Below, piece after piece: positions 18,849 to 39,347 of a stretch of DNA of 42,426 nucleotides; the first letter of the stretch is position 1; every line of letters starts with the position of its first letter. The stretch is from Acidobacteriaceae bacterium. Lineage in GTDB: Bacteria; Acidobacteriota; Terriglobia; Bryobacterales; Bryobacteraceae. Under the pieces are notes generated by a model. That model worked only from the letters and a program-made list of their open reading frames with translations. It was not told the DNA's origin and searched no databases. Position numbers and translations under genes: made by a program. The stretch spans positions 1 through 42,426 of the forward strand of contig JAFAUR010001058.1 of the NCBI GenBank assembly GCA_019243205.1, given 5' to 3'.

Positions 18849-19430
18849 ATGAAATCAGAAGTGATGGCGGGCCCAGAACAGCAGTTTCTGACCGCGTATC
18901 GTTCGAAGTTGTATCAGGCGCTCGACCGGATCGACCTCGATCAGGTCGAACGCGTCGTTCAGCTCTTAAAAGACGCCCGCGCCAATAATCGCCACATCTT
19001 CACGTGCGGCAACGGCGGCAGCGCTTCAACGGCTTCGCATTTCGTAACCGACATGGTAAAAGGCGCCAGCTATCTCCGCGACCAACGATTTCGCATCATC
19101 GCTCTAACGGATTCAATGCCGACCATCACGGCTTACTCGAATGATGTAAGTTACGACTGTGTTTTCACGGAGCAGCTGAAAAATTTCGCAGAACCGGGAG
19201 ATGTGTTGATCGCAATCAGTGGGTCTGGGAACTCACCGAACGTGGTATGCGCGATTGAATACGCCAGATCGAGGGGATGTTCGACCGTTGCGCTTACCGG
19301 GCGAGATGGCGGCAAGCTCGGTCGAGCAGCAGACGTTGAAGTACGCGTGGCAGAGGAGCATATGGGCAGAATCGAGGATGCGCACCTCATCATCTGCCAC
19401 ATGATCTGTTACTACTTCATGGAAAACTAG
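18849..19430 (+). CDS. SIS-domain sugar-phosphate isomerase, GmhA-like
   Basis: A 193-residue sugar isomerase-fold protein. The loop CGNGGSASTASHFVTDM (53-69) matches the sedoheptulose 7-phosphate isomerase family (GmhA), and SGSGNSP holds the phosphate-binding Ser. The catalytic Glu of E. coli GmhA in QHFAAE aligns with Asp68 here, a conservative change. EDAHLIICHMI near the C-terminus corresponds to the region with the second catalytic His. It may begin heptose synthesis for envelope glycans, fitting the neighbouring glycan genes, but other SIS isomerases are possible. Its stop shares CTAG with the flippase-like gene on the opposite strand. Confidence 0.82.
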   Translation: MKSEVMAGPEQQFLTAYRSKLYQALDRIDLDQVERVVQLLKDARANNRHIFTCGNGGSASTASHFVTDMVKGASYLRDQRFRIIALTDSMPTITAYSNDVSYDCVFTEQLKNFAEPGDVLIAISGSGNSPNVVCAIEYARSRGCSTVALTGRDGGKLGRAADVEVRVAEEHMGRIEDAHLIICHMICYYFMEN

Positions 19431-20494
19431 TCGGCAACCAAGCTCTGCTCTCGGCCGTGGATCGTGACAGTTTCCAGCGCCGGGGCGATAGTCTTGGCCT
19501 TCTTAAATTTCACAAGCGCGATCAGGCCCCAGATGCCGATCATGACGTACATGAGCGCCTGGAATAAAAGAATATAAGCGATGGAATCCGTGCGACTGAT
19601 GCCGAACGGTGTCAGCACGCTCACTGCTACAAACTGGTAAATTCCGACGTAACCTGGAGTCGAAGGCAGTGCACTGCCCAGACCGAGTCCCGCAATCAGC
19701 AGAAATGCTATGGGGGCGTTGATGGAGACTCCCAACGCCTTCGCGCCGATCATGGTCGTGACCGCATCGAGGCACCAGATGACACAAGTGAGCGCGAGGA
19801 AGCCGCCCAGCCTTTTCAGATCATGGAAACTCCGGATCCCGCGGAGGATATGTTCGATCAAATGCTGCAGGCGCTCGCAAATGTTTTGCGGAAGCGGCAG
19901 CGCCTTCAAGACGGTTTTTGAAACCTTATCCAGGTAAGGCAAGGTTGCGAGCGCCAGGATGCCGCAAGCACCGGCTATCGCAAACGGCTTCGCCGCTGCC
20001 GCCAGCCACCCAGGCCGAAAGGAAATCGTAAGCAGCACAAGTGCGCTGATTGTCACAAGCGCAATTGCATCCGCAAGACGTTCGCAAAGCGCGGTCGTCA
20101 ATACAAACGCTTTGCTCAAACCGGAACGTGAGCTGATCATCAGCGTGCGCACCACTTCCCCAGCCCGCGCGGGCAAGAAATTGTTGCCGAAATACCCGGC
20201 AGAAGTGGCCCAGAACGCTGTCGAGACGCTGATATTGCCCTCAGCCTTCAGGAGAATGCGCCAGCGAAAAGCGCGTAGAAATAGGGCGGTTGAGAAGATA
20301 GCGCAGCAAAGCAGCAGAAACGGAACATTCGCATGTGCGAGAATCCGGCCCACGCGGGCCCATTCGATGCCTCGGAGGGAGAAATAAAGCAGGATGGCTG
20401 CGAGGGCGATCGCAAACACAGTTGAAACAAAACGCATGCCCAGGCGAGTGCCGGTAGCCCTCGGTGAAGGTTCGCTATTCTGAGGAAAATCCAA
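19427..20494 (-). CDS. Flippase-like integral membrane protein (UPF0104/LPG synthase TM family)
   Basis: A 355-residue polytopic membrane protein with about eight helices. The family hallmarks are RAFRWRILLKAEG near 73-85, YFGNNFLPARAGEVVRTLM (100-118) and SALPSTPGYVGIYQF in the C-terminal half, where the Pro-Ser-Thr-Pro-Gly motif is diagnostic. It lacks the lysyltransferase domain of MprF. The TTG at 20494 is preceded by AGAGG seven bases upstream, which decides the start. It is the last gene of the glycan operon, so moving a lipid-linked sugar across the membrane is a reasonable inferred role. Confidence 0.82.
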   Translation of the reverse strand: MDFPQNSEPSPRATGTRLGMRFVSTVFAIALAAILLYFSLRGIEWARVGRILAHANVPFLLLCCAIFSTALFLRAFRWRILLKAEGNISVSTAFWATSAGYFGNNFLPARAGEVVRTLMISSRSGLSKAFVLTTALCERLADAIALVTISALVLLTISFRPGWLAAAAKPFAIAGACGILALATLPYLDKVSKTVLKALPLPQNICERLQHLIEHILRGIRSFHDLKRLGGFLALTCVIWCLDAVTTMIGAKALGVSINAPIAFLLIAGLGLGSALPSTPGYVGIYQFVAVSVLTPFGISRTDSIAYILLFQALMYVMIGIWGLIALVKFKKAKTIAPALETVTIHGREQSLVAD

Positions 20495-20570
20495 AATCGT
20501 ACCTCTATCTACTCTCGCATTTTCAGCTACAAATTCCTAGCCGCTCCCACCCCCGTTGGGCGTAACGATA

Positions 20571-22085
20571 CTACAGCTTAGGAGCATTTACGAGGTACAA
20601 ACGGTAGGGGCCCACCCAGCCAAGAAGTTCAATCTGTGCGCCTTCAGATTTCAGCGCGTTATACATCCAATACTCCCCGTACAGTAAGAACTGCGTATGG
20701 GTGCGGCGAAACTGGAAGTAATCCGTCAACGGCCATCCTGTCCAGCGATGAATGGCGAGAGCGGCCAGGGCGGCGTTATCGTTTCCCGCAAACCTCAACA
20801 TCGATTCCCGGCTGGTAATCATGATGAGGCGAGATGAAAGCCACGCCGGTCCGTAAAGATGAGTGCGCATAGCGAAGTCAAAGTCCGGGCTTACCAGGTC
20901 GAGATGAGGGTAGCGGTTCAGCAGATCCGGGTTTTCGCCGGCCCACTGCGACGAAGGCGAAAACGCGGGCTGCCGAGCTAAATCGATGTAGCCGATTTGG
21001 TCGACTATGAGCGAGATGAAGAGAGCTCCTAACAAAGCCGTGCGATTTCCGCCTGCTGCGTAATAGATGGCGGCTCCGACGAGAATGGCGACGCCGATAA
21101 TCATGTAGATGGCATGCCAAACCCGGAAGGTATTCGACGCAAGTCCGGCTGTGGAGAACACTAACAAGGGCGAGAGCGCGAAGGCGGAGGCAACGACCCA
21201 TTGGTAAGGACGAAGCCCATCGACGCGGCCTGGATCACGGAACACGAATCGCAGCGTGACGGCGACACCGAGCGCGGTAAGCGCAACAGGATAATTTAAC
21301 GAATTGAGAAACGTAAGACCTAAATCGCCCGCGCTGAGCGGGTGAAAAGGGTGAGCCCGATAGATGGCGCCCGCGGGCAGAAAGGCGGCATAGATGGGAG
21401 CAGCGACTAGAGCAGCAGCGGCGAGAGACGTCCAGACGGCCCAATCGATCGCGCGCCTTACGGCTGAGCGTACCAACTCACCGAGCACGATCGGAACGAT
21501 TCCGAATGCGGCGTAGTAGTGCAGCAGCATTGCCGCTTCTGTGGAAATTCCCAGCAAAACAATCCAGAAGCGTCTGTTCACACGGGCCTGAGCTGCCCTG
21601 TCCCACGACAGTAACGCGGCGGCGAGAGCAGCGATTAGCAGAGAATATGGCCGCGCCATGGCGCCATACTCAGCATGCGGGCTGCTCGCCAAAAGTTCGG
21701 CCGCTATGAGTGCTACTCCGAATCCGAGCCAGTCGCGGACGACTCCGAACAGTGCGGCTGCTGCAATACACATCCCGAGGATGGATGGGATCCGCACAGC
21801 AAGATCCACGGGGACAGGGAGATGCGCGAAAAGAAAGCTAACGATCGGGAATAAAGGCGGATCGACATTAAGCGGTTCCCGCCGTAGCAGCGTCAGAACA
21901 GTCTGAAGATTCGCGGATTGCGCGGATATCCGCGCCATCAGCTCGTCTGTGTTGAGCGGGGTGTGGAGCGCGCGGACGAGGAGATCAAAGCAGATCAATG
22001 CCAGGAGTGCAAACAGGGACAGCTCTTCTCGCTTGGGCGTAAGAGCGAGTCGGAGGTGAGCCGTTCTCCTGGTGCAGGAACTCAA
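20571..22085 (-). CDS. GT-C type membrane glycosyltransferase (ArnT/PMT-like), copy 1
   Basis: A 504-residue protein with about ten membrane helices and a soluble C-terminal part (from about 390). The first extracytoplasmic loop holds the acidic pair Asp47-Glu48 (PLNTDELM), the position of the catalytic acid in the GT39/GT83 class that uses polyprenyl-phosphate sugars. DPPLFPIVSFLF follows, a PP motif common in the class. The TTG at 22085 begins 11 bases after the preceding stop; no better start is visible. The acceptor is unknown. It lies in the six-gene operon after a similar enzyme; the two are probably diverged paralogues. Confidence 0.72.
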   Translation of the reverse strand: MSSCTRRTAHLRLALTPKREELSLFALLALICFDLLVRALHTPLNTDELMARISAQSANLQTVLTLLRREPLNVDPPLFPIVSFLFAHLPVPVDLAVRIPSILGMCIAAAALFGVVRDWLGFGVALIAAELLASSPHAEYGAMARPYSLLIAALAAALLSWDRAAQARVNRRFWIVLLGISTEAAMLLHYYAAFGIVPIVLGELVRSAVRRAIDWAVWTSLAAAALVAAPIYAAFLPAGAIYRAHPFHPLSAGDLGLTFLNSLNYPVALTALGVAVTLRFVFRDPGRVDGLRPYQWVVASAFALSPLLVFSTAGLASNTFRVWHAIYMIIGVAILVGAAIYYAAGGNRTALLGALFISLIVDQIGYIDLARQPAFSPSSQWAGENPDLLNRYPHLDLVSPDFDFAMRTHLYGPAWLSSRLIMITSRESMLRFAGNDNAALAALAIHRWTGWPLTDYFQFRRTHTQFLLYGEYWMYNALKSEGAQIELLGWVGPYRLYLVNAPKL

Positions 22086-22096
22086 TCGATATCACT

Positions 22097-23695
22097 TCAT
22101 TCCGGGTTGGGGGACCGCGCCTCGAATAGCCAAGCCCCGCCTTGCCGCGCGACCACTCTGTCGAGTAATCCCTTGCTAGCGAGCCAATCGGTCATCACAT
22201 CGGTCGAGATTCCGGTGTGGAGGATATAGAAACGTGGATATCTGGCGAAAAAGGTTGCGGCATCGGTTATGGGCAAATCGGGGCGGATTGGAATCCAGCG
22301 CTTTACCTGGTTCTCATTGGTCGGGTCAGGACTGACAACTCCCGCGGGCGCTGTGACGTACACGAAGCGAGACCTGGTCGCGGGCGGAGCCGATTCTTCC
22401 AGCTGAAGAAATTGAAGACCTTCTCCGATCACGACTGGAAGTGACCTGTCCGTCCGGGCCAACATGGGCTGCAGGTAATCTGCTCTTTCGCCGAAACTTG
22501 GAATGTCCATGAGAGTCATCGAGCAGGCTATCAGGACCATGAAAGGCCCGATGATTCGGATGGTCGACAGATGACTAACGACGCAGGCGGCCAGAATGGA
22601 GAAACCCAGACACCCAATCAGGCAGTAACGATCATTGAAAGTCTTTGTGACGAGACGAGCGACGATGAAGATGCACAATGGGAACACAACCTCACAGAAA
22701 GCTATCACGTATAGGTTGGTCCGGCTCTTCTCGGTCGGTCCTGCCGCCACTCTGAAACTCGATGCCTTCAGACCGCGCGACCCGCTCAGGGCGTAAGCGG
22801 CCCCGAGCAGAACAATTGTGGAAAGAAGAAAGAGCACGTGCTGTCCGCTGAACAGGAACAGTTTCATGTACACGAAGCCGAGTGCGGATATTTTGGGCCT
22901 AGCGTAATAGGAGCTGCCCCAAGTATCGCCGGCATTGAAGCGGCTGAGAGTTCTGAGTAGCGGCAACCAGGCTAGCGAGCATAAGCCGGAAACAATAAGC
23001 GCAATCCAAACTGCAGGTCGCACTCTGGCGTGAAGCATCGACCACACGAGTTCCATAGAGCCGAGGCAGACCACGAAGAGCGCCGCATAGAAGTGCAGTG
23101 ATCCGGTGAAGGCGAGGAGGAGTGCAATCCCCGCGACGCGCCAGAACGAGATGCCAGTCCGGTCGAGATCGTCCCAGAGCAATGTGGCAAGGGCAAAACA
23201 AGCAACTAGCAGCGCATACGGGCGTGCCTGCAGAGCGAAAAAGGGCAGGAATCCTAATAGCGCGAATGTCACACCAAAGGCGGCTGAACTGATGTCCAGA
23301 TAACGACGGAGAAGCGTGAACAGGCAAATGCCGGTGACGATATGAGCGAAAACCGACAATAGCCGGTAAACCAAGTAGCTATCTCCCGCAACAGCCGACA
23401 AGTAATGAAGCAGGAGGTGGTAAGTTGGCGGCGAGAATTCGGCACCGTGCGCCAGTGCCGAGTAGATAGCAGCAGCGGATGGCAAACGGGCGACCCACAC
23501 CGCAAGGACCTCATCCATCCAAAGAGGGTTCGAGGCGGCAGCCCGCAAAATAACAACGAGATCGCAGAATAGAAACAATACAACCAAGGCCAGCACTAAT
23601 CTATCGCCGGTCAGCGCCGCTCCTCTCCATACACGGACGCGGTTGCGGTTGGTCGTGGAAATTTGATCGGTATCGATTTCGGTGGGCGCAGCCAT
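22097..23695 (-). CDS. GT-C type membrane glycosyltransferase (ArnT/PMT-like), copy 2
   Basis: A 532-residue polytopic membrane protein. The first outer loop reads SNPLWMDEVLAVW with Asp61-Glu62, followed by FSPPTYHLLLHYL, as in the GT39 superfamily. About ten helices run to residue 430 and a periplasmic C-terminal domain follows. ATG 23695 comes one base after the epimerase stop, so the genes are coupled; a longer TTG frame overlaps the epimerase and is unlikely. Polyprenyl-phosphate sugar is the expected donor, supplied by the GT2 in the same operon. Confidence 0.75.
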   Translation of the reverse strand: MAAPTEIDTDQISTTNRNRVRVWRGAALTGDRLVLALVVLFLFCDLVVILRAAASNPLWMDEVLAVWVARLPSAAAIYSALAHGAEFSPPTYHLLLHYLSAVAGDSYLVYRLLSVFAHIVTGICLFTLLRRYLDISSAAFGVTFALLGFLPFFALQARPYALLVACFALATLLWDDLDRTGISFWRVAGIALLLAFTGSLHFYAALFVVCLGSMELVWSMLHARVRPAVWIALIVSGLCSLAWLPLLRTLSRFNAGDTWGSSYYARPKISALGFVYMKLFLFSGQHVLFLLSTIVLLGAAYALSGSRGLKASSFRVAAGPTEKSRTNLYVIAFCEVVFPLCIFIVARLVTKTFNDRYCLIGCLGFSILAACVVSHLSTIRIIGPFMVLIACSMTLMDIPSFGERADYLQPMLARTDRSLPVVIGEGLQFLQLEESAPPATRSRFVYVTAPAGVVSPDPTNENQVKRWIPIRPDLPITDAATFFARYPRFYILHTGISTDVMTDWLASKGLLDRVVARQGGAWLFEARSPNPE

Positions 23696-23696
23696 C

Positions 23697-24557
23697 TTAG
23701 GATGAATGGAATGGTAAAGGTTCAACTCCGTACTTTTCCATCTTCGAAAAGTCGGGTTTTAGATTTTGGTAAATGAAGCTGATAACGCTATCGCTACGGA
23801 CTGGCAGTTTGATTTGCATTAGTTCAGATGTCCTTAGCCCGCCGTAAAGGATTCGCCACGGAACGGGTATAAAAGTAACTTTGCGGCCCTCCTCCTCAGC
23901 TATTAAGGAAACAATATCGCGGAACGGCCAAGCCTTCGGATGAGCAATCGTCAGCGGTGACGGTTCCCCGTCGAAATCGCCTGCGACTGCGCGGGCAATA
24001 ACCTGCATTAGGGTTTTCTCATGTAAGAGGTACTGGGGAGCGCGTCCGTCGCCAATCAGCGGAATAAGTTTGCTCTTCCGAACCTGTTCTCGGATCGTTC
24101 CGAAGATGCCCCCGGAATGGGGACCAAACACGAGCCCGGGGCGAAGAACGGTTCCGCCCATCGAGTTGAACGTATCCTCCACTTCGAGCTTGGAGCGTCC
24201 GTATGCGGAGTGGCAGCCCGGAAACGCGCTGATGGTTGAGATAAAGATAAACCGAGATACTCCGGCGCGGCCCGCCATCTCAAGAAGCCGGCGGGACCCG
24301 GCGACACTGGAACCCCGCAGTTCGTCGAGGCTGTTTGCTCGCATGTCCCAGGCTGCGTGCACTAATGTCGTCACTCCGCGAGCACGCAATGCACCAGAGA
24401 TATCGGTCGCCGCTTCCAACTCCCACTGCAAGTCGTTTCGGTTTCCCGGCCGGCGCACAAGCGGCACAACTGCCGCTTGCGGCGAGATTGCATCCACAAT
24501 CAGTGAACCAACATAGCCGGTTGCGCCAGTAACCGCACAGACTTCGGAAGCAGGCAT
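23697..24557 (-). CDS. NAD-dependent epimerase/reductase (extended SDR)
   Basis: A 286-residue extended short-chain dehydrogenase with the Rossmann loop VTGATGYVGSL (9-19), Ser/Thr in ISTISAF (106-112) and the catalytic YGRSK (Tyr119, Lys123). The C-terminal half binds the substrate, normally a nucleotide sugar or lipid-linked sugar. It lies between the GMC oxidoreductase (4-bp gap) and a GT-C gene (1-bp gap). The pairing with a flavoprotein oxidase suggests it re-reduces a keto-sugar made by that enzyme, as DprE2 does for DprE1, but the sequence does not show the substrate. Confidence 0.82.
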   Translation of the reverse strand: MPASEVCAVTGATGYVGSLIVDAISPQAAVVPLVRRPGNRNDLQWELEAATDISGALRARGVTTLVHAAWDMRANSLDELRGSSVAGSRRLLEMAGRAGVSRFIFISTISAFPGCHSAYGRSKLEVEDTFNSMGGTVLRPGLVFGPHSGGIFGTIREQVRKSKLIPLIGDGRAPQYLLHEKTLMQVIARAVAGDFDGEPSPLTIAHPKAWPFRDIVSLIAEEEGRKVTFIPVPWRILYGGLRTSELMQIKLPVRSDSVISFIYQNLKPDFSKMEKYGVEPLPFHSS

Positions 24558-24561
24558 TGCG

Positions 24562-26154
24562 CTACGAGTAAGCGTTCAACATCGAGCCGATGCGGTAAGC
24601 ATTGGCCATAACGCTTAGAGTGATGGTTGTTGCCGGAATGGACGGGAATATAGTCGAATCCACGGCGTGGATCCGGCTCAAACCCGCCGGTCTCCCGAAA
24701 ATATCGCTTTGGCCGCGCGTGGGAGTGTTGGACATGGGGAAAGTTCCCCCGGAATGAAACCCGCGTCCGGGTCGACCGGCCTTGAACATCGGGACAAGCG
24801 GCACCAATCCAGTAGTGCCCATGAGACCCGATAGTTTCTTGGTCACTTTGCGCAGAATTTTCTGAGTCTCCGGTTTCGGCATGCCCCGGAGGTGGAGAAA
24901 GTCCGTTCCGTTTTGCATGCGAAGAGTGAGGTCCATATCAGGCGAGTGAGCGGAATGCAAATAACCCTGAAAGAGCAACAATCTACCGACAAATGTCTCG
25001 AACGGGAAGAAACGCTTCAAAGGTCCAAGTTTGTCGACCACGGGTTCTCGAAACAGCTCGTTATACGTATAGGTCTGCAGATGAATCGTGTAGGGGCTGA
25101 TACCGCGATCGAGGACTTCGATAAACAGTTGAGCCAGGGTGTGTAGCCGCTCGGTTGCCACGTCGCTAGTACCCTTCACGCGCAATAACGGCAACAGGAA
25201 GTACTGCGAATCGCGAAGCTTCACAGCAGAGTCGTACCAGCCTAAAGAGCGTAGCAGGACAGCGGCGGTCCCAAGGACGCCCGCGCCCACGAACACTCGA
25301 TCGCCCTGCATCCGGATTTCCCCGCCCTGGGCCTCGATTCCCTGAATGGCGACACCTGTCGCATTTTCCTCGACCGTCCGAACTGTGGTACCTGGGCGAT
25401 AGTGGAAATGAGGATGTTTGAGCAGATCTGACAAAGTGGAATCGACGGAGTAGATGAGCCGATGCGGGCACCCGTACATGCAAAGCCCACAGGCCACACA
25501 GCCGGACGTGCCATTCAGCTGCGCCTTCACGGCCAGCCTGGCCACTCCAAACGAGATGCCTTCCGCTTTCAGCTTATCCCGCCGCCTTTCGAGGTCTGCG
25601 AGCAGCCCCTGTGCCTGACGGCTCATCGGTAGAGGCGTATACCGATCGCTGTACAAAGGGAAATCGGCTTCCAGATCATCGCGACGGGCCGCGAGTGGCA
25701 TCCAACGAAACACAGCGCGGTAGCCGGGCTCCAGGTCCTGCTGCGTGATCGGCCAGTCCTCCAAGTCGCGCTGCAGATAGGGAAGGACTGCGCTTCCCCA
25801 CACGGTGCTGAGCCCACCTTGTGCGTATGACGGTCTGGATTCCGATCCTTCGCATCTCACCGGAGTTGCTCCCGGGAGCAGACGGTACGGGAAGTCAGAA
25901 CCGTAAGCCAGTTTCAGGGGAATACCGGACGCGCCCGCACTCATGCCGTCTTTCATGAAAGCGACTGATTCTCCCGTCCATTCTGCCGGTGCCCGCTGTG
26001 CGACTTCGAGGATTTTCTGCAGACGTTGCGGCTCGATCGTCTGACCGGAATCGAGCATAGTGACTTCGGCACCGGCGTCCAACAAACCTTTCGCACAGGC
26101 GACACCGGCGGGACCGGAGCCAATGACGAAGATCAAGGCAGGCCCCCAGGGCAC
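24562..26154 (-). CDS. GMC oxidoreductase with a ferredoxin-like cysteine motif
   Basis: A 530-residue FAD enzyme that oxidises an alcohol group. The ADP-binding loop is VIGSGPAGVACAKGL (10-24) with an acidic end MLDSG; the C-terminal GMC signature includes FHSGGTFPM, VDSTIFPSIPATTITL and a final helix. Cysteines 219, 222, 225 and 229 form CVACGLCMYGCP, the CxxCxxCxxxCP pattern. Bacterial FAD-dependent glucose dehydrogenases of this family have a [3Fe-4S] cluster in a comparable Cys motif, so an Fe-S cluster and an external electron acceptor are plausible. No export signal is seen. The GTG start lies 12 bases after the GT2 stop; with the following epimerase it could remodel a lipid-linked sugar. 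Confidence 0.83.
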   Translation of the reverse strand: MPWGPALIFVIGSGPAGVACAKGLLDAGAEVTMLDSGQTIEPQRLQKILEVAQRAPAEWTGESVAFMKDGMSAGASGIPLKLAYGSDFPYRLLPGATPVRCEGSESRPSYAQGGLSTVWGSAVLPYLQRDLEDWPITQQDLEPGYRAVFRWMPLAARRDDLEADFPLYSDRYTPLPMSRQAQGLLADLERRRDKLKAEGISFGVARLAVKAQLNGTSGCVACGLCMYGCPHRLIYSVDSTLSDLLKHPHFHYRPGTTVRTVEENATGVAIQGIEAQGGEIRMQGDRVFVGAGVLGTAAVLLRSLGWYDSAVKLRDSQYFLLPLLRVKGTSDVATERLHTLAQLFIEVLDRGISPYTIHLQTYTYNELFREPVVDKLGPLKRFFPFETFVGRLLLFQGYLHSAHSPDMDLTLRMQNGTDFLHLRGMPKPETQKILRKVTKKLSGLMGTTGLVPLVPMFKAGRPGRGFHSGGTFPMSNTPTRGQSDIFGRPAGLSRIHAVDSTIFPSIPATTITLSVMANAYRIGSMLNAYS

Positions 26155-26166
26155 GACCCCAGCACG

Positions 26167-27414
26167 CTAAATCGCTGCCACCTCGGCAGACGCATACTCT
26201 TTTAGTGGACCATTTGCGTGGTGGCGTACGCTCAGCGCGAGAGTGCTCATGAGAAAGCTGGAAAGAATGATTTCCATCCCGAGGCTCATAGCGATCGACG
26301 AGGGAATCACGAGGCGAGCAATGACCTCCGTGTCGAGTTCTCCAAAGCCGTGCTGACCCCATGAGATCACGGCGTAGATAGCGAGCACCAGTCCGAGCAG
26401 GAAAACCACGATTCCCGCTGCCAACCCACCTTCAAGTGTGAGCTTACCGAAAAGCAAGTCCTTAGTTGCCGTAGGAGGGTAGAGTCCCTCCTGCACAGCA
26501 TAGATGCGCGAGAGCATGGAAAACAAAATGGCCTGGAAGCCGATAACGATAAATGAGCCGCAATAAATGAGTGTGTCAAGGCCGAGCCGCACTCCATCGA
26601 CGGTGACTGGCTGCGCCGTCAGAATGGCACCGACCATCAGCCCCAAAAAGAGAAGAGCCAGGCCCGGATATAGAAAGAGCCAATTGGGACTGAAGAGCAA
26701 CATGAAACGTAAATGCCGCCAGCCGTCGCGATACGGTCGGAGGTGTGGCGGACGCGACCGCCCGTCAGGACTCAGCGTCGTGGGGACCTCTGCCATACGC
26801 ATGTTCATGATAGTGGCCTTGATGACCATCTCAGAGGCGAACTCCATGCCCGTGGTACGAAGGTCCATGCGATTGAAGGCAGTTTTTGAGAAGCCCCGAA
26901 TGCCGCAATGGAAATCTCCGACAGGTGCACGGAACAGCACCTTGCCAATCGCAGATAAAACGGGATTGCCGATATAGCGATTCTTCCAGGGCATTGCGCC
27001 CGACTTTATTTCGCCAGTGAAGCGGTTCCCCATCACCAGATCGTAGCCTTCCCGGAGCTTCTTGAGAAATCCGTCCAGATTAGTGAAGTCATAACTATCG
27101 TCCGAATCGCCCATGATGCAGTAGCGCCCGCGTGCAGCTTGAGTAGCGCCGTAAAGAGCCGCACCGTAGCCCCGCACCGGGATGGCGATGACGCGCGCGC
27201 CGGACCGCAAAGCTATTTCCTGCGAGCCATCCGTTGAGCCGTTATCACCGATGACGATTTCCCCGCGCACACCCGATCGCTGCAGGTAACCGTCGGCTTT
27301 CCTGATGCACACTTCCAGAGTTTCGGCTTCATTGAGGCACGGCATGATGATCGACAATTCGATCTCGGAATTGTCGTCTTTCCTGCTGAGCGCTGGCGTT
27401 AGGTCCGCTTTCAT
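26167..27414 (-). CDS. GT2 polyprenyl-phosphate sugar synthase with membrane anchor
   Basis: A 415-residue enzyme with an N-terminal GT-A catalytic domain (SIIMPCLNEAETLE at 21-34, IGDNGSTDGS at 55-64 and the metal-binding DSDDSYDF at 103-110) and a C-terminal membrane part of about four helices (243-266, 280-300, 329-350, 365-392). This matches the dolichol-phosphate mannosyltransferase/GtrB type, which loads a sugar from a nucleotide donor onto polyprenyl phosphate. It is the first gene of the six-gene operon and would supply the donor for the GT-C enzymes. No strong Shine-Dalgarno or promoter could be identified in front of it. Confidence 0.87.
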   Translation of the reverse strand: MKADLTPALSRKDDNSEIELSIIMPCLNEAETLEVCIRKADGYLQRSGVRGEIVIGDNGSTDGSQEIALRSGARVIAIPVRGYGAALYGATQAARGRYCIMGDSDDSYDFTNLDGFLKKLREGYDLVMGNRFTGEIKSGAMPWKNRYIGNPVLSAIGKVLFRAPVGDFHCGIRGFSKTAFNRMDLRTTGMEFASEMVIKATIMNMRMAEVPTTLSPDGRSRPPHLRPYRDGWRHLRFMLLFSPNWLFLYPGLALLFLGLMVGAILTAQPVTVDGVRLGLDTLIYCGSFIVIGFQAILFSMLSRIYAVQEGLYPPTATKDLLFGKLTLEGGLAAGIVVFLLGLVLAIYAVISWGQHGFGELDTEVIARLVIPSSIAMSLGMEIILSSFLMSTLALSVRHHANGPLKEYASAEVAAI

Positions 27415-27725: not shown

Positions 27726-29573
27726 ATGTGTAATGCTTCACAAATCCGGAAACTGCGGATTATAGCGTATGTCGTGATTCTCGCGCTGGGAATTGCTCAA
27801 GCATGGGCCACGCGGCACATCATCTTCTCCGACGGGATCTCATATTTGGAGATAGCAAGCGCTTACCTGCGCGGAGATTGGGCGAACGCCATTAATTCGT
27901 ATTGGAGCCCGTTCTACTCCTGGTTGATTGCGGCCACCCTATGGCTGTTAAGGCCGGGCCCTTACTGGCAAGCGTCCGTATTACACATCGTCAACTTTAT
28001 CGCGTACGCGGCCGCGCTGGTCGCTCTCGATTTGCTGATCGGCGAGATCCTGAGAGCCATGCAGGTAGATGTATCCGGCCCGAACAAACCGTTGTCTCCC
28101 TGCACCATCTACGTCGCGGCGTATACCGCGTTTCCTGTCGCAGCGCTCGGAATCATTGGTTACAACTCACCTGACACTATCAGTGTTGCGCTGATGCTTC
28201 TGCTAAGCGCACTCATCTTGAAAGTCCGACACATAGCGGGCTTTCCGATGATGTTTGTGCTGATCGGGGTAACTTGTGGTGTCTACTATCTGGCCAGAAC
28301 CGGATTTGCCCCTTTGGTTCCGCTTTGCATTCTCGCGGTGCTGATCCCTCTCCGGCACAGCAACAGATCGTTGCTGAAACCGGCAGCGGTAATGACATTG
28401 GCAGTTCTGGCAACATGTGCTCCGTTTGTACTGGCGATCAGTCACAAACAGCACCACTTCACGATCGGCGAAGCCGGGAAGCTGACGTACGGATGGGAAG
28501 CTTCGGGCGCGATCAGGTTTACACATTGGCAGGGCGAGCCCCATGACATCGGAGTGCCGACACACCCGACCAAGAAGATCAGCACACATCCGGATGCTTA
28601 TGTCTTCGACGGACCGGTGGGTGGTACGTATCCTCCTTGGTTCGATCCAACGTACTGGTACGACGGCATCAAGCCTAAGCTGAAACCTGCGCTGCAGCTT
28701 CGAGTATTCTCCATCGGCGCTCTGCTCGTCATTCGTTTGCTGCTGGCATCTCCGATAACAATTCCGTGCATCATTCTGATAGCGCACATGGGATTGCTGA
28801 TATGGTTGCGGAAACTATGGTCCTTCTGGCCCATGCTTCTCCCGACGATTGCCGGCCTTCTTCTGTACTGCCTGGTGTATGTCGAAAAGCGCTACATCGC
28901 TTCGAATCTCATTGTCATTTGGCTTGCCGTCCTTGCCAGCATTCGAATCCGGGGCGAGAATTGGCAGAATTGGGCCAACCGCCTGACGCAAACATTATGC
29001 CTGGTCTTCTTCGCATATTTCCTGTATTCGCGCGCTTATCCGCCCGTTGCAGGGTCTCTTTGGGACCTCACTCATCTTCGGGAACACGACAAGAACCTGA
29101 ATTATATGTTCGCGGAGCGTTTGAAGAACCTGGGATTACAAGCTGGTGATAAAGTCGCCTTCATCGGCATCGGGACGAACGCGGATTGGGCGCGATTGGA
29201 TGATGTTCGGATTGTCGGTGAAATACCGATCGTTTGGCAAAGGCCTCAGAAACTTCTCGACAATTACCTGATCGAGAATTCGGAGCAAGTGCGGGCATTC
29301 TGGAAAGCCGATGCTACTGTACGCAAACACATCCTGGAGGAGTTCAGAGGTGCTGGAGCGGTGATGGTGGTGACCGACGGTCTGTATAACAAGAACTTTC
29401 CTCCCGAGTGGAAACCAGTTCTCACTCCTATTGAGATTGGAAAACCTCGCTTCAAGGACGACATTGATTACGAGCGGCGCCAGAATTGTCGTTATGTTTG
29501 GCTCGTATCTCCGCACACCCAACCATCGACATCGGCCGGAGCGAACCGCCGATCAGACGGCAAGCGCTCGTAA
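27726..29573 (+). CDS. GT-C type membrane protein, copy 3
   Basis: A 615-residue polytopic protein. The first helix (11-29) is followed by TRHIIFSDGISYLEIASAYL with Asp36, the acidic position expected in the first outer loop of GT-C enzymes, then NSYWSPFYSWLIA. Ten or more helices extend to about 440, and a soluble C-terminal domain (about 460-615) ends basic and polar. No Shine-Dalgarno is visible before the ATG. The exact family is not recognised, but the plan is that of a lipid-linked sugar transferase. A degenerate second copy of its N-terminus lies just downstream. Confidence 0.65.
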   Translation: MCNASQIRKLRIIAYVVILALGIAQAWATRHIIFSDGISYLEIASAYLRGDWANAINSYWSPFYSWLIAATLWLLRPGPYWQASVLHIVNFIAYAAALVALDLLIGEILRAMQVDVSGPNKPLSPCTIYVAAYTAFPVAALGIIGYNSPDTISVALMLLLSALILKVRHIAGFPMMFVLIGVTCGVYYLARTGFAPLVPLCILAVLIPLRHSNRSLLKPAAVMTLAVLATCAPFVLAISHKQHHFTIGEAGKLTYGWEASGAIRFTHWQGEPHDIGVPTHPTKKISTHPDAYVFDGPVGGTYPPWFDPTYWYDGIKPKLKPALQLRVFSIGALLVIRLLLASPITIPCIILIAHMGLLIWLRKLWSFWPMLLPTIAGLLLYCLVYVEKRYIASNLIVIWLAVLASIRIRGENWQNWANRLTQTLCLVFFAYFLYSRAYPPVAGSLWDLTHLREHDKNLNYMFAERLKNLGLQAGDKVAFIGIGTNADWARLDDVRIVGEIPIVWQRPQKLLDNYLIENSEQVRAFWKADATVRKHILEEFRGAGAVMVVTDGLYNKNFPPEWKPVLTPIEIGKPRFKDDIDYERRQNCRYVWLVSPHTQPSTSAGANRRSDGKRS

Positions 29574-29915: not shown

Positions 29916-31565
29916 TCAGGGAGTCGGCGGCAGAAGTTTGTAAATCAAAACAGAGCCGAGCGGGTGGGCAGAGCCGTTTGAAAATTGTCCGAGCAACCTA
30001 AAGCGCGCAGAGTGATCGATCGCCTCTTGCAACAGGCGAATGTGATCGAATCGGTCAGCGCTACTGAAGTTATCAACCGCTACAGCCGTTACGCCGTGAC
30101 TATCGAGATACTGCAATAGCTGCGATGGAGAAGAGAAGAGGCAGCGGTAACTAGAAGCATCCCAATTCACGTGCGCGAGGGTCTTCGTCGCACGCAGGAT
30201 TGTGCACCTTGGGTAAGGTTGCAGCATTGCCATTTCGGAAATCAGCAGTCCTTCCCCAATTGAACCGGAAGAGACGAGCAGGGTAGCACTTCGAAGAGAT
30301 GGTTGATTGCAGATGAACCGCGCGGCTTCATCGTAGCCGTAATGCTCGTCGCGCGGAATTTGAAACGTAGTGAGGAAAAACGAAAGCGCTGCGACTGACG
30401 CTGTCAAAAAGTACCGCCAGTTCAAGGATTGTGGCAGCGGCAAGCGCCCTGCAAACCACTCGCCTCCGACAAACAAAAACAGAACGAGCGCGGGTGCCGC
30501 GATGACCATCTTCCGATTCTCCACTCCCGCGGGAACGAGCGAGTGAAACAGCCAGACGGCTATGATGAAGCTGAACATGGTAGCAGGCCCCGGCGAAACG
30601 CTCACGCGTCGGACCGCGGGCTTGACGACCAGCAGGCCTATGCCCAAGAGCGTAAGGACGGTCAGCGCGGGGCCGCCGATTTGCTCCAGGATGACGAGGA
30701 ATTCACCCAACGCGGAAACGGTGTAATCCAGGCTCGGCTTTTCGCCACCGGTCCAGCCCTGCTCGACCAGCCGCATCGTCATGAACTGCCATGGGAGGCA
30801 CAGGACAGTGACGATAGCCGCCGCTACCCAGAGTTGCGGACGGCGCAGCAAGTTGAACTTGCGTGTCAACAGAAGTGTGATGGGGGGCACCAAAGCCAAA
30901 AGCCAACCGCTTCCCTTCGTCAGAACTGCAAGCGAGAAGAACAAAGCAAACAGGAGACAGGGACGCCACTGTTCCGTTTCCATATAGCGCGCAAAGAATA
31001 CGGCCGCCAGGAAACAAGTCAAGACGAGCAGGCTTTCGGCCATTTCCTGATCGCTGTAAGTCTGAACCAGCGGCAGGCAAACCGTAAGCAAGCCGGCAAA
31101 GAAAGCCGCCACTGGCTTCATCCATCTGCGCGCCTCCGAATACACAGCGAAAGCCAATAGAGCAGAGGTGAATGCAATCTGGAGGCGAACTGCTGCGCGA
31201 GAAATCGAAAACAGCAGCATCCAAACCGCTTGGAATAAATAGAACAATGGCGGCCAATGGCCGAGTGCCACTTTCGGGTAGTGCTGGTAATAATCCCGTG
31301 CAAACTGCATCGGCGAGACAGGCTTCAGCCCAGCGATGTAGTTTCGAACCATAACGGACGTGACATAGTGCGCGGGCTCGTCCGGGTACCCGCCAAACTC
31401 CGCATGGTAGGCGCCGCTCGCTAACTGAAGGAGCACAACAGCCGACAGAAACGCGAAGAAAACAGCAAGGTGAATACGAGGTGAAGTGCGGTGTGGCCCT
31501 AGAACAAAGCTAGTTTCATCAATTCGCTTCTCCGTCACCACATGGAGCTCGTTTTCCAGAATCAT
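29916..31565 (-). CDS. GT-C type (GT39-like) membrane glycosyltransferase, copy 4
   Basis: Taking ATG 31565 the protein has 549 residues. A short cytoplasmic N-terminus leads into a helix at 32-50 and a loop with GGYPDEPAHYV, whose Asp62-Glu63 is the likely catalytic acidic pair; GHWPPLFYLFQAVW then matches the GT39 pattern. Eight to ten helices follow and the soluble tail ends KLLPPTP. Upstream in-frame starts (ATG 31613, TTG 31673) exist, but they approach the divergent gene and lack Shine-Dalgarno sequences, as does the chosen one, so the start is uncertain. It would use a polyprenyl-phosphate sugar. Confidence 0.72.
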   Translation of the reverse strand: MILENELHVVTEKRIDETSFVLGPHRTSPRIHLAVFFAFLSAVVLLQLASGAYHAEFGGYPDEPAHYVTSVMVRNYIAGLKPVSPMQFARDYYQHYPKVALGHWPPLFYLFQAVWMLLFSISRAAVRLQIAFTSALLAFAVYSEARRWMKPVAAFFAGLLTVCLPLVQTYSDQEMAESLLVLTCFLAAVFFARYMETEQWRPCLLFALFFSLAVLTKGSGWLLALVPPITLLLTRKFNLLRRPQLWVAAAIVTVLCLPWQFMTMRLVEQGWTGGEKPSLDYTVSALGEFLVILEQIGGPALTVLTLLGIGLLVVKPAVRRVSVSPGPATMFSFIIAVWLFHSLVPAGVENRKMVIAAPALVLFLFVGGEWFAGRLPLPQSLNWRYFLTASVAALSFFLTTFQIPRDEHYGYDEAARFICNQPSLRSATLLVSSGSIGEGLLISEMAMLQPYPRCTILRATKTLAHVNWDASSYRCLFSSPSQLLQYLDSHGVTAVAVDNFSSADRFDHIRLLQEAIDHSARFRLLGQFSNGSAHPLGSVLIYKLLPPTP

Positions 31566-31694
31566 ATTGATTTCGGAGAGATCAGAGAAGCCAATGCAGC
31601 CATTCCCTATCATACTTGTGGAACGTCTCAATCTCACGAAAAATCTTATGGAGTTATTCATCGAGTGAATCAATCAAGGGTATGCTTCGAAACA

Positions 31695-32978
31695 ATGAAT
31701 GTGGTTGATTCCTCATTACGGGATTTCAGAACATCGGGAGTCGCTATCTTCCTTGTCGCGCTCACCGTACGCATCCTTTTCATCGTATTTGCTCACCCGT
31801 ACCACGACCTAAATCGGTATGAACTAGAACGCACCGCAATCTCTCTTGCAACACAGGGTCTCTATGGAAATCCCTATGCGATTCCTACCGGGCCTACAGC
31901 TCACGTATCGCCTGGATACACAATTTTGCTAGCAGGAATTTTCCGAATCTTTGGCACCGGCACGCTCGCCGAGATCATAAAAGAAATCTTTGCGTCGATA
32001 GTCACTTCGCTTGCTTGCGCGCTCCTGCCGTGGGTTGCTCAGAATCTCCGGATTTCACGAGAGGCGGGTCTTCTTTCCGGCATGTTTTCAGCACTGCTGC
32101 CGTTGAGCCCACTGGTGCAGATTGATGGCGACTGGGAGGCTCCCTATACGGCGCTTGCCCTCATGTTGGTGTGCGTGTTGACACGACGTCTCTGGCAGGA
32201 CAGGGTCCTAAGCAATCGACAGGCAGTCATGAACGGATTCTGCTGGGGCATGAGTTTACTATTCGCTGGTGCATTGCTAGCACTATTCTTTATCCTTTTG
32301 GCCGCGGGGTTCTGGTTTTGTCGGGCTGGAGGTCTGAAGAGATATTTGCGTTTTGCATGCGTTGAAGCGGCTATCGCTGTTCTGTGCCTGACGCCCTGGG
32401 CCGTCAGGAACGAACGGGCACTGAGAGCGCTCGTGTGGACGCGGTCAAATTTCGGCCTCGAACTGCGCGTGTCAAACAACGACTTCGCTTACCCGGACCA
32501 GCGATTGAACTCTCTCTATGGTGTTTATAACCGCTATCATCCGCTGCAAAGCCCGGAAGAAGCAGCCAAGGTGCGAAACATGGGCGAGATTTTGTATAAC
32601 GCCCAGGCCGCAGCTGCCGCGAAAGACTGGATACGAAATCATCCCCGGAAATTTCTCGCCTTGTGTGTCGGCCGGTTCCGTTGCTTCTGGTTCTATCCCG
32701 ATCCGTCAAGAATCAAAGCGATTCTCATGGGAATTGTAGTGGTACTTGGTGTTGCGGGCCTCTACAGTGAATGGAAAAGCGATCGATTGACCGCCGCTCT
32801 CCTGACGACTGTGTTGATCATCTATCCACTCCCAAGCTACCTGGTGCACGTTGGCGTGCGGCAACAATATCCGATCCAGTGGATCCTAACTCTCCTTGGG
32901 GCGGGTCTAGTGGTGAGATGGGGACGGCGCTGGGTATCTCGTCCGTCCCGCGTTGAAACGGTGACGCCCGCAGCTTAG
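31695..32978 (+). CDS. GT-C type membrane protein, copy 5
   Basis: A 427-residue polytopic membrane protein with helix one at about 14-33, an outer loop with [16 protein letters not shown] (Asp38 and Glu43 are candidate acids), then [17 protein letters not shown], as in GT39-like families, and eight or nine more helices. The C-terminus is short, so it lacks the soluble domain of the other copies. I chose ATG 31695; the frame is open upstream but that part overlaps the divergent gene and is not hydrophobic. Its TAG overlaps the TAA of the opposite flavoprotein gene. Confidence 0.68.
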
Positions 32979-34787: not shown

Positions 34788-36923
34788 TTAGGGCTCGACC
34801 CAAACCGCTGCTTGACCCGGAGCAAGTTGGCGTTGGCCCACCAGGATTTGGGCGCGCGGAGACGCAGGTATCGCTTGAGGATCGCTGGCGAAATTGGTGC
34901 CGACCCAGAACCCGTCACGCCAATCGACAAGAAAATCCGGCTTAAGGTCTGAGGGATTCACACCGGCTCTCTGGTACACACCACGCAGCAGAGAACGTTC
35001 GACTTCTCCGTCTTCGGTATCCACACCTATATAGGTCACGCTGCCTCGGCCAACATTCCGGGTCACAGCAGCCGCGCGGCCGGAATAAAACTGATCCGCA
35101 TACTGGGCCAGGATTTTTGTGCCTCCGGCGGGATCGAGAATTTCTCCCCAGGAACCCCAGGTATAGGTTTGTCCTTCAGCAGTGACGTGACCGTTCACAG
35201 CTGGCGGCGGTGTATCGTAGAACGGAATTTTCGCTCCGATCAGGTCGACAATCGGCTCCGCCCATGGGCCCTCCCAAAGGTGCCCGTGTTCGTCCTTTTG
35301 GGCAGTTCGACAGGTAAGCACAAGATGACCTCCACCGGCCACATAGCTCTTCCAACGCGCGACGAGTTCCTGCGTCACCAGTTGATATGCAGGCGCGACC
35401 ACGAAGGGATATTTGCTGAAATCACGGTCATCGGCTAACACATCCACAGGCGCCATCATCGTCTTGAGCGCTCGATAGTACCGCATCCAATGGGCTTCGG
35501 TGCTCCAGCGCGCGGTCTGTTTATGAATCTCTATATCGTACCGGCTATCGAAATTGATCAGAAACGCCGTGCGGCGAGCCGCATATGCACGGGGCTCGGC
35601 TGCATCGGCCCGATAATGCTGCCTCAGCTTGATGACGTCTGCCATGGCCTGAGCATATTCGCGTCCTCCCGGCGAAGGAGTGACCCCATCGGTTTCCGCC
35701 AAACCTTTGTGATACAGCTCGGAACCAAACAGCGGCTGCCGGTAGCGATACGTGCACACGATCTGCGCACCCGCACCGAACGCACGCAGGATCCACATAT
35801 GGATTGCACCTGGTTGCGGCCAGGGATTGTACTCGCCCCAGTTCACCTGGCCGGGCTGCAACTCCATCAGCCCCGAGGGTCCACCGAGATTACGCATGAA
35901 GTCATGCATGAACGACATGATGGAGGCGCTTCCCAGACGGAATCCCAACGAGCCGTCGAGCAATTCGCCGTGGACCGGGTAGTGCGTCCAAGTGAAGGCG
36001 TCGAGCGTGCGTTCGGATAGAGCCGGATTGACGTCTTCATGCATGCTCATGAAGTTGGTCGTGATCCATTGATTCTTGGAGTAACGACGGATCGCATCGG
36101 CCTGCAGCTGGATATACCCCGCGGCTTCCTGAGCAAACCAGCGGCGGAAATCGAGAGCCGCGTGAGGGCTAGGATCGGCCACTAATGTTTCCGCGTTCGG
36201 TATATCGATCTGATCGAAATTCTGGTACATGAGCGACCAGAACGCGCCGCCCCATGCCTGGTTCAAACGGTCGACACGTCCGTATTTCTCGCGGAGCCAG
36301 TCGCGGAAACGCAGCGTAGCCGCCTTCGAATAGGAGAATCTGCGTCCATAATGACTGAGCTCGTTGTCGATCTGCCAGCCCCATACGCGTTTGTCGTTTC
36401 CAAACCGCTTGGCAAGCTCGGTATCAATCTTCGTGACGTATTCGCGATAAACGGGTGAACTCCAATCGCCTTGCTCCCGGCTGCCATGATCCATCGTTCG
36501 ACCTTCGGCATCCACCATGAGAATTTCGGGATGTTCCCGACTGAGCCAGATGGGGGGCGCCCCACTCGGAGTACAGAGAATTACCTTGAGTCCGTTTCTG
36601 GCGGCGAGCTCGACATTTTTTTCTAGCCAGTCGAAATCGAATTTCCCTTCTTCCGGCTCCATGAAATACCAGGCAAACTCACCCATGTGGACAAATTCCA
36701 TCCCAAGCTTGCGGATGTTCGCCATATCGCGGGCCCATTGCGATTCCGGCCAGGCTTCGGGATAGTAATAGACACCGATCGTCAGCATGTCTTTCTTCGG
36801 AAACCAATCGGGATTTCTCATAGCGGCCGGCTCTGGCTGCCCGTACAGACAAGTCGTACTCAAAAGAAGCAGGACAAAGCAAACAGCGGAAAATCTTGTC
36901 TTCGATTCCACCAAGATCAACAT
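34788..36923 (-). CDS. Secreted beta-galactosidase, glycoside hydrolase family 42
   Basis: The protein, from ATG 36923, has 711 residues. A signal peptide (residues 1-28, ending CLYGQ) precedes the TIM barrel, which opens with TIGVYYYPEAWPESQW (48-63). The acid/base is Glu188 in WQIDNELS and the nucleophile Glu354 in LMELQPGQVNW, both typical of GH42. A flavodoxin-like trimerisation domain with VVAPAYQLV and a small C-terminal beta domain follow. Longer in-frame starts (to 36992) overlap the divergent alpha-galactosidase gene and would bury the signal peptide. It probably cleaves terminal beta-galactosides in the periplasm or outside. Confidence 0.9.
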   Translation of the reverse strand: MLILVESKTRFSAVCFVLLLLSTTCLYGQPEPAAMRNPDWFPKKDMLTIGVYYYPEAWPESQWARDMANIRKLGMEFVHMGEFAWYFMEPEEGKFDFDWLEKNVELAARNGLKVILCTPSGAPPIWLSREHPEILMVDAEGRTMDHGSREQGDWSSPVYREYVTKIDTELAKRFGNDKRVWGWQIDNELSHYGRRFSYSKAATLRFRDWLREKYGRVDRLNQAWGGAFWSLMYQNFDQIDIPNAETLVADPSPHAALDFRRWFAQEAAGYIQLQADAIRRYSKNQWITTNFMSMHEDVNPALSERTLDAFTWTHYPVHGELLDGSLGFRLGSASIMSFMHDFMRNLGGPSGLMELQPGQVNWGEYNPWPQPGAIHMWILRAFGAGAQIVCTYRYRQPLFGSELYHKGLAETDGVTPSPGGREYAQAMADVIKLRQHYRADAAEPRAYAARRTAFLINFDSRYDIEIHKQTARWSTEAHWMRYYRALKTMMAPVDVLADDRDFSKYPFVVAPAYQLVTQELVARWKSYVAGGGHLVLTCRTAQKDEHGHLWEGPWAEPIVDLIGAKIPFYDTPPPAVNGHVTAEGQTYTWGSWGEILDPAGGTKILAQYADQFYSGRAAAVTRNVGRGSVTYIGVDTEDGEVERSLLRGVYQRAGVNPSDLKPDFLVDWRDGFWVGTNFASDPQAIPASPRAQILVGQRQLAPGQAAVWVEP

Positions 36924-36928
36924 ATTAT
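36923..36928 (+). promoter_or_regulatory. Candidate -10 box for the alpha-galactosidase gene
   Basis: TATTAT lies 23 bases before the GH36 start codon and overlaps the GH42 start codon on the other strand. No strong -35 hexamer sits at the right distance (TTCGAT, 16 bases up, is a poor match). Confidence 0.25.
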
Positions 36929-36951
36929 GTCTGGAACGTAAAATCGAGACC

Positions 36952-39144: not shown

Positions 39145-39347
39145 GACCCTTGCGTAGGCTGTAGCTGACGTGATCATCCGCAAACAGCAACCTGTCAGGT
39201 GCGCGGTATGCACGTTTCGCTCGAGCCTCAACTGCTGGTCAAACGAGCCCGGGTGCAGTCCCTGCGTGGTTCGCAGTCGTTCACTCGATCAAAACGCAGC
39301 CGAAACATTCGTTTAACATAAACTCGTTAGGCTTTTTTCGGGGTTCT

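Follow-up and report, generated by a model that had tools for sequence, protein, structure and literature searches.

A GMC-fold flavoprotein paired with a reductase or an aminotransferase: a putative module for editing lipid-linked sugars in Acidobacteriota and other phyla

The window analysed here is a stretch of 42,426 nucleotides from an Acidobacteriaceae bacterium (contig JAFAUR010001058.1), taken at its full length. On its reverse strand, it carries a gene for a flavoprotein of the GMC oxidoreductase family, which is preceded by a gene for a family 2 glycosyltransferase (GT2) and followed by one for an extended short-chain dehydrogenase/reductase (SDR). An earlier note had read these genes, together with two GT-C-type transferases and a flippase-like protein, as a six-gene operon that may epimerise a lipid-linked sugar. 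The fixed unit is the GMC gene with a reductase gene or the GMC gene with an aminotransferase gene, not the six-gene operon. We lean towards the view that the gene set encodes a pathway for the editing of lipid-linked sugars, in which a sugar would be loaded, oxidised to a ketone and reduced to an epimer. The three genes at its centre are:

26167..27414, reverse strand: GT2, predicted polyprenyl-phosphate sugar synthase of the DPM/AglJ type (PF00535, AglJ and DPM synthase matches, count of transmembrane segments)
24562..26154, reverse strand: predicted GMC-fold dehydrogenase dependent on flavin adenine dinucleotide (FAD) (profile; iron-sulfur (Fe-S) cysteines C219, C225 and C229, plus C222; fold predicted by AlphaFold2 (AF2))
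23697..24557, reverse strand: extended SDR, probably of the type using nicotinamide adenine dinucleotide phosphate (NADPH), proposed ketosugar reductase (Pfam Epimerase, Tyr119, Lys123, Arg35, AF2 fold)

Conservation of the GMC-SDR pair

Related loci were collected in several searches. The first covered 60 genomes, the window's own and relatives, and yielded two full-length distant relatives of the GMC protein besides the window's, with an SDR gene adjoining or one small gene off. Among plasmid records, 63 contained a GMC match, and SDR neighbours were present in all four that were inspected, one from Azospirillum (36%) and three from Rhizobium (28-30%). A profile search of 297 genomes drawn from the phylum put 14 genomes over the threshold, 11 of which hold clear members of the GMC family, the window's included. 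A scan of one genome per species returned 125 encoding stretches, of which 80 loci were kept, and reached many phyla and two Woesearchaeota. The locus set comprises 94 entries (80 + 12 + 2) and was counted as 93, L054 and L133 being one contig. As the taxa are unevenly represented, with many Verrucomicrobia and Rhodobacteraceae, counts of loci are not counts of independent events. The record of the L054/L133 contig says Acidimicrobiia, whereas a genome search says the window's phylum and the nearest relatives of its GMC protein are Acidobacteriota records; its taxon label may be off.

De novo clustering of all open reading frames (ORFs) within 5 kb of the GMC gene ranked the SDR first (62/94 loci) and the GT2 second (57/94), when the GMC group itself and groups of short unlabelled ORFs resembling antisense shadows were set aside. 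With profiles, an SDR was found within 500 bases of the GMC gene, or fused to it, in 62 of 93 loci. Among the carriers of both genes is a named strain, Granulicella aggregans M8UP14 (L067). The arrangement is mostly the same, with 49 of 53 separate well-scoring SDR genes lying on the same strand downstream of the GMC gene, and 13 of 52 same-strand SDR genes overlapping it by 4 bases. For comparison, 31 control loci, which encode GMC proteins outside this family (two of them coincide; flanks of 1.5 kb or up to the limit of the contig, one longer), yielded zero matches to the SDR, GT2 or DegT profiles in their flanks of about 1.5 kb, whereas the same profiles at the family loci matched within 1.2 kb in 60 (SDR), 34 (GT2) and 9 (DegT) of 93. 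Because the adjacency of GMC and SDR recurs in many phyla and the control loci are empty, it is more than chance.

In nine of 93 loci a DegT aminotransferase gene is located within 1 kb of the GMC gene, and none of the 93 has both SDR and DegT, a result with a probability of 2e-5 if relatedness is ignored. Another 22 loci have neither partner within these distances; ten of these contain an SDR within 2.3 kb, and some others sit on short contigs. The three DegT neighbours that were scanned are PF01041 proteins; for the one compared with solved structures, from L123, sugar aminotransferases came closest. In five of the nine loci (L054, L086, L118, L123 and, weakly, L121), DegT occurs together with a GNAT gene or domain. 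A tree of 90 GMC rows, made by a quick method with no bootstrap, requires at least four switches between SDR and DegT. An SDR can reduce a ketone and a DegT enzyme can aminate one; their repeated exchange therefore points to a common ketosugar intermediate, and a shared ketone best accounts for the pattern of swaps.

In two metagenome-assembled genomes of Verrucomicrobia (L077 and L090), GMC and SDR are fused into single proteins of 833 and 834 amino acids, with the GMC domain at residues 3-527 and the SDR domain at 547-807 and 547-824, respectively. Pfam recovers both parts in L077, the fusion that was scanned, with GMC_oxred_C below its cut-off. The proposal that GMC and SDR genes stay together near a GT2 gene beyond the window has thus held up across phyla, down to the fusion of the pair in two genomes.

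Some loci depart from the layout of the window. Mainly in Rhodobacteraceae and their kin, an SDR gene, a gene for a protein with eight transmembrane segments (about 480-500 amino acids) and the GMC gene follow each other, in some with an extra ORF (L122, L126, L129, L130, L132, L135, L136, L138, L140 and L142). A small protein of about 145-157 amino acids is encoded beside some GMC genes (L002:1019-1492, L055:8837-9271) and seems to form a C-terminal extension of the SDR in L052:10794-12182; the L002 copy matched no Pfam family, and the L055 copy, like the tail of a Rhizobium SDR (L032:8781-9998), was counted as similar by eye only.

The flavoprotein

In Pfam, the window's GMC protein matches GMC_oxred_C (E 6e-4) and GMC_oxred_N (E 1e-3), both below the cut-offs. 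Its assignment is firm because the family profile of its relatives matches solved GMC enzymes, namely, in the Protein Data Bank (PDB), FAD glucose dehydrogenase (E 1e-25), pyranose oxidase (5e-17) and fructose dehydrogenase (2e-12). N and C domains, the FAD Rossmann motif and the catalytic His of GMC oxidoreductases are all recognisable. The AF2 model (mean predicted confidence, pLDDT, 95.5) has as its best PDB match, among the matches listed, 6a2u_B (BcGDH; Z 32.6, 3.4 Å over 469 residues), tied with fructose dehydrogenase (Z 32.0), and pyranose oxidases reach about Z 29. By profile as well as by fold, the closest solved enzymes thus have sugars as substrates, which supports a role in sugar editing.

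Residues C219, C225 and C229 align with Cys212, 218 and 222 of BcGDH, which, according to PMC6719666, bind a 3Fe-4S cluster. The Cys-x5-Cys-x3-Cys motif is complete in 88 of 91 aligned GMC rows, a sample partly chosen on the motif. Twelve loci (L051-L062) were found by searches that did not use the motif; of the 11 that were aligned (all but L060), eight carry it and three (L055, L057 and L062) lack it. The catalytic His467 is present in 89 of 91 rows, including the window's. The protein resembles BcGDH and fructose dehydrogenase in its GMC fold, its three Fe-S cysteines and its catalytic His. It differs from them in sequence (14-17% identity over the fold alignments, among the matches listed), in the absence of a signal peptide, and in the catalytic Asn, which is mostly Thr in this family. 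A further difference may lie in the partner subunits: no gene for a small 'hitchhiker' or a multihaem cytochrome subunit was recognised in the window's operon or elsewhere among the window proteins scanned; the rest of the genome was not searched for them. The label 'oxidase', used in the earlier note, fits less well: judged by these cysteines, and by a profile and a predicted fold closest to Fe-S sugar dehydrogenases, a dehydrogenase is more likely than an oxidase.

The GMC reading frame of the window starts no more than about 12 residues from the FAD motif, as do those of many relatives. This leaves no space for a signal peptide, and the enzyme is therefore expected to be cytosolic. The true start may be the TTG at 26136, 18 bases inside the GTG at 26154, since the first residues of several relatives are M(I/V)(Y/F/C)V(I/V)GSG; the gap between GT2 and GMC genes would then be 30 bases. 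The window's genome holds one clear member of the GMC family.

Aminoglycoside GMC oxidoreductases oxidise a primary alcohol to an aldehyde, and the family profile also matches a chain labelled 6'''-hydroxyparomomycin C oxidase (PDB title: C-glycoside oxidase). A corresponding oxidation at C6 or C7, with the partner enzyme acting on the aldehyde, would suit the DegT partner as well as a ketone does. We consider it very improbable, as a reductase would then merely undo the oxidation, yet the SDR is the commonest partner (62/93), and as ring hydroxyls are the target of fructose dehydrogenase and pyranose oxidase, which are closer relatives.

The reductase

The window's SDR matches Pfam Epimerase (PF01370; E 2e-13) and exhibits the GxxGxxG motif, the Ser/Thr and the Tyr-x3-Lys expected of a catalytically competent extended SDR. 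Tyr119, Lys123 and Ser/Thr108 are present in 55 of 56 rows, the window's included, and the remaining row is gapped there. Arg35, located after strand 2, is found in 47 of 56 rows; an Arg at this place favours NADPH. The enzyme is thus probably of the NADPH type, which would fit a role as a reductase. Among the matches listed for its AF2 model (pLDDT 96.4), the closest folds are those of the 39-kDa SDR subunits of complex I, with Z values reaching 27.3 (278 residues); UDP-glucose 4-epimerases come next, with Z values reaching 24.9 (252 residues). In complex I this subunit lies at the membrane surface, where it binds NADPH, and a comparable position would suit a lipid-borne substrate.

Both enzyme families also include members that act on sterols or fatty alcohols, as illustrated by a cholesterol oxidase among the profile matches and a 3Beta_HSD match in Pfam. 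We nevertheless give very little credence to the idea that a lipid alcohol, be it the polyprenyl chain or some other, is the substrate of the pair in place of the sugar, since neither the swaps to sugar-type DegT and GNAT proteins nor the nearest relatives, which are sugar dehydrogenases, fit with it.

The GT2 and the stage of editing

The window's GT2 matches PF00535 (E 2e-21), the NCBIfam AglJ model (E 6e-39, below the cut-off) and the DPM synthase structure 5mlz in the PDB (E 3e-8). A crude count gives four transmembrane segments, at the C-terminus. The DPM-type assignment is thereby upheld: a GT2 domain with C-terminal transmembrane segments, nearest to DPM, AglJ, PpgS and ArnC, with NCBIfam scores below the equivalog cut-offs. 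The protein is 47-70% identical to 18 GT2s of GMC loci from several phyla. A GT2 is located within 6 kb of the GMC gene in 57 of 93 loci (profiles), and members of the window GT2's own subfamily (at least 150 bits) are present in 37, in 36 of them within 6 kb. All 19 of the more divergent GT2s near GMC genes match the dolichyl-phosphate hexose transferase model.

A GT2 dedicated to the GMC protein was also considered and is ruled out by co-occurrence in the phylum draw, where 41 of the 297 genomes contain the window's GT2 subfamily and 39 of these 41 lack a GMC family member. In a GT2 tree of 57 rows, which took in 20 of the 39 GMC-less places, the contexts GMC with SDR, GMC with DegT and no GMC interleave, with at least ten changes between GMC and none (quick method). 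It therefore appears that the loaded sugar is common to all contexts and that GMC modules come and go, which suggests that editing would take place after loading on the lipid.

The alternative is that oxidation followed by reduction or amination acts on a cytosolic nucleotide sugar or sugar phosphate, and that the GT2 transfers the finished sugar. We regard this as unlikely, though worth keeping in mind. Among the SDR and DegT enzymes of solved structure that come closest, many use nucleotide sugars, and some GMC loci have a GT9 gene or no nearby GT2. In addition, a gene run on Rhizobium plasmids pairs GMC and SDR with what appears to be a nucleotide-sugar supply set: it contains, SIS first, a GT2, a polytopic protein (unlisted in one of three gene tables), a UPF0104 protein, an epimerase, a nucleotidyltransferase/HAD fusion and a GHMP kinase. 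One interleaved GT2 subfamily in all contexts would, however, demand repeated changes of donor specificity, and we know of no GMC enzyme that has a nucleotide sugar as its substrate.

Neighbouring genes

The other genes of the region are:

22097..23695, reverse strand: GT-C1, polytopic, GT-C-like (homology to GT-C2; crude count of 10 transmembrane segments)
20571..22085, reverse strand: GT-C2, PMT_2 family (Pfam PF13231, E 1e-9)
19427..20494, reverse strand: UPF0104/LPG_synthase_TM flippase-like protein (PF03706, E 2e-53; NCBIfam TIGR00374 above cut-off)
27726..29573, forward strand: polytopic protein, encoded divergently from the GT2 gene and a candidate for a GT-C that works with the GT2 (relatives beside GT2 relatives)
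18849..19430, forward strand: GmhA-like isomerase with a SIS domain, encoded convergently next to the operon (match to the phosphoheptose isomerase model of NCBIfam, E 1e-43, below cut-off)

The ORF list places the six reverse-strand genes where the earlier note had put them, with gaps of 12, 4, 1, 11 and 76 bases. Its family assignments stand in Pfam and NCBIfam, with a weak match for GMC and no Pfam family for GT-C1; PF03706 (LPG_synthase_TM) corresponds to UPF0104. GT-C1 starts with the ATG at 23695, the listed ORF extending to a TTG at 23725, and its alignment with GT-C2 spans 217 columns (30%, E 4e-6).

As a conserved unit, the six-gene operon did not survive the comparison: 39 of the 41 GT2-positive genomes lack GMC, and the GT-C and UPF0104 genes are no conserved part of it. 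Iterated searches of 127 polytopic ORFs near GMC genes (E 1e-4) with GT-C1 and GT-C2 retrieved only each other. A UPF0104 profile matched 12 ORFs in 94 loci, including two loci that supplied members of the profile. A better candidate for the partner of the GT2 appears to be the divergent gene at 27726-29573 (forward strand), outside the interval of the earlier note. It matched no family in the Pfam scan, and its relatives stand beside the GT2 in five of 20 GMC-less loci and in L065, so that GT2 and divergent GT-C candidate look like a base unit. Beyond it lie two more polytopic proteins, at 29916-31673 (reverse strand) and 31542-32978 (forward strand), one of them PMT_2, for which the same iterated search of 127 polytopic ORFs found no relative; the glycosylation region of the window may extend past 29573. 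The region is flanked by glycoside hydrolases (GH65, GH42 and GH36-type) and two OMP_b-brl_4 outer-membrane proteins (730-6164, 34788-42425).

The SIS/GmhA-like neighbour is no more than a possible sugar supplier, and a profile of this gene matched one ORF across 94 loci. In the Rhizobium run described above, the isomerase, phosphatase and kinase have the GmhA, GmhB and HddA models as their best or among their best matches, below cut-off. Elsewhere in the window's genome (contig C384, L194:6710-10054), an epimerase, a nucleotidyltransferase/HAD fusion and a GHMP kinase stand in a row, like in the Rhizobium run, and the fused nucleotidyltransferase also matches HddC. Heptose as a general substrate was dropped, the kinase being linked beyond chance neither to GMC (3/10 vs 44/286, p 0.20) nor to GT2 (6/40 vs 41/256, p 0.64) in the phylum; it may remain a candidate substrate for the window's organism only.

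GT9 genes, presumably heptosyltransferase-like, adjoin the GMC gene in L031, L103 and L107, the GT2 of L031 being 4.3 kb away and L103 and L107 having none within 6 kb; perhaps a different acceptor or stage is involved there. These three loci, together with the GmhA-like gene near the operon and the match between the window genome's epimerase, nucleotidyltransferase/HAD and kinase set and the Rhizobium run, could also mean that the target of the pair is a sugar already built into a complete glycan or glycolipid, such as a GT9-placed heptose, and that the GT2 is close by because polysaccharide loci are shared. This appears improbable to us, given that the co-occurrence of kinase and GMC does not exceed chance and that the GMC protein, starting close to its FAD motif, would be cytosolic.

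Discussion

From the observed gene order, swaps, fusions and residues and from the predicted folds we infer the following chemistry, lipid stage and direction of flow for the editing of lipid-linked sugars. The GT2, judged by its family, would move a sugar from a nucleotide sugar to polyprenyl phosphate at the inner leaflet. The GMC Fe-S dehydrogenase would then turn one secondary hydroxyl of the lipid-linked sugar into a ketone, with electrons passing from FAD via the Fe-S cluster to some acceptor, and the NADPH-type SDR would reduce this ketone from the other face, giving the epimer. In related loci DegT takes the place of the SDR and would convert the same kind of ketone into an amino sugar or, with the GNAT protein found in five of nine, an acetamido sugar. 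The finished donor would be flipped and then used by a GT-C enzyme. A wider reading, which we hold only tentatively, is that of a modular remodelling of polyprenyl-phosphate sugars by a cytosolic Fe-S GMC enzyme with SDR or DegT/GNAT, independent of DprE1/DprE2. It would, to our knowledge, hold the first route to amino sugars built on the carrier lipid.

Several observations weigh against this pathway. GT2 and GMC occur together in only two of the 297 phylum-draw genomes (G000 and G242), and with the window's own genome excluded the GT2 is no more frequent with GMC than without it (1/10 vs 39/286, p 0.77). In 36 of 93 loci no GT2 match lies within 6 kb, three loci have a GT9 adjoining GMC, and the divergent GT2s match other GT2 models too, for example PgaC_IcaA (17/19). 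The window's GT-C1, GT-C2 and UPF0104 proteins are poorly conserved with the GMC pair, and only 23 of 67 polytopic neighbours match PMT_2. As for the flavoprotein, two of 91 rows lack the catalytic His, Thr occupies the second catalytic position (Asn519 in BcGDH) in 70 of the 91 rows and Asn in 7, and a non-sugar GMC enzyme, choline oxidase, is also close in fold (Z 28.9, among the matches listed). No gene for an electron acceptor was seen. Finally, the patterns of the 80-locus scan included the Cys motif, so that its conservation there is partly built in, and the SDR profile behind both counts and control was built from GMC-adjacent SDRs, so that the control tests this kind of SDR only.

The gene set is one that works like DprE1/DprE2 but is not a member of that system. 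In both, a flavoprotein and a nicotinamide-dependent SDR stand beside polyprenyl-phosphate-sugar and GT-C genes, and, by analogy, oxidation followed by reduction would take place on a lipid-linked sugar. DprE1 is of the FAD_binding_4/ALO type and the DprE2-type reductase is a classical SDR (PF00106). The proteins of the window differ in the GMC fold with its Fe-S cysteines, in the extended, probably NADPH-type SDR, in a DPM-type GT2 instead of a ribosyl transferase, and in being fused, or DegT-swapped, in relatives. The GMC protein does not belong to the family of DprE1, in line with the earlier note: at a Pfam E of 0.01 or lower it matches GMC and neither ALO nor FAD_binding_4, and its relatives and folds are GMC, while PF00106 is unlisted for the SDR at the same threshold. 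A DprE1 elsewhere in the window's genome was also considered; the one ALO-family match is a protein with an N-terminal leader, presumably an alditol oxidase. The idea of an independent pathway for lipid-linked sugar epimerisation is retained in part: the GMC-SDR pair is conserved and often has a GT2 nearby, a dehydrogenase is more likely than an oxidase, and the six-gene unit is dropped.

Other known systems share single features with the window. Gnu/Z3206 is an extended SDR epimerase that acts alone on undecaprenyl-PP-GlcNAc, via a transient ketone and with bound NAD. It would be comparable in having an extended SDR and a polyprenyl-linked sugar, whereas in the present case one protein or domain would oxidise and another would reduce. 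The GtrA/B/C systems and the Citrobacter pentofuranose systems with the auxiliary epimerase ORF13 (PMC11127046) are alike in combining a lipid-phosphate-sugar synthase, a GT-C and sometimes an auxiliary epimerase proposed to act after loading. PMC11127046 describes DprE1/E2 and ORF13 as auxiliary epimerases of this kind, and its authors state that they are unaware of other epimerases in O-polysaccharide side-chain systems. The window contains predicted candidates for lipid-phosphate-sugar synthase, flippase and GT-C, but the GT-C and UPF0104 genes show no conservation alongside the GMC pair. It differs in that a GMC dehydrogenase or DegT goes unmentioned in the passages of PMC11127046 that were consulted and in that the GT2 is AglJ/DPM-like. 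Full-text searches gave, by the titles and abstract openings of the papers listed, no GMC/SDR or GMC/DegT pair in lipid-linked sugar synthesis; with preprints and most subscription papers beyond reach, this is weak evidence of absence.

The DprE1/DprE2 step is the best-known epimerisation of a lipid-linked sugar and a target of tuberculosis drugs. If the proposed pathway is true, the gene set described here would be another, unrelated solution to the same problem, and the swap of partners makes its ketone intermediate directly testable. Records of the family come from Acidobacteriota, Verrucomicrobiota, Actinomycetota, Cyanobacteriota, Chloroflexota, Pseudomonadota and even Woesearchaeota. As related sets in other phyla contain a putative nitrogen-adding enzyme in place of the reductase, this may be a general way of remodelling sugars before cell-surface assembly, and the gene set would then predict unusual epimeric or amino sugars on many unstudied cell surfaces.

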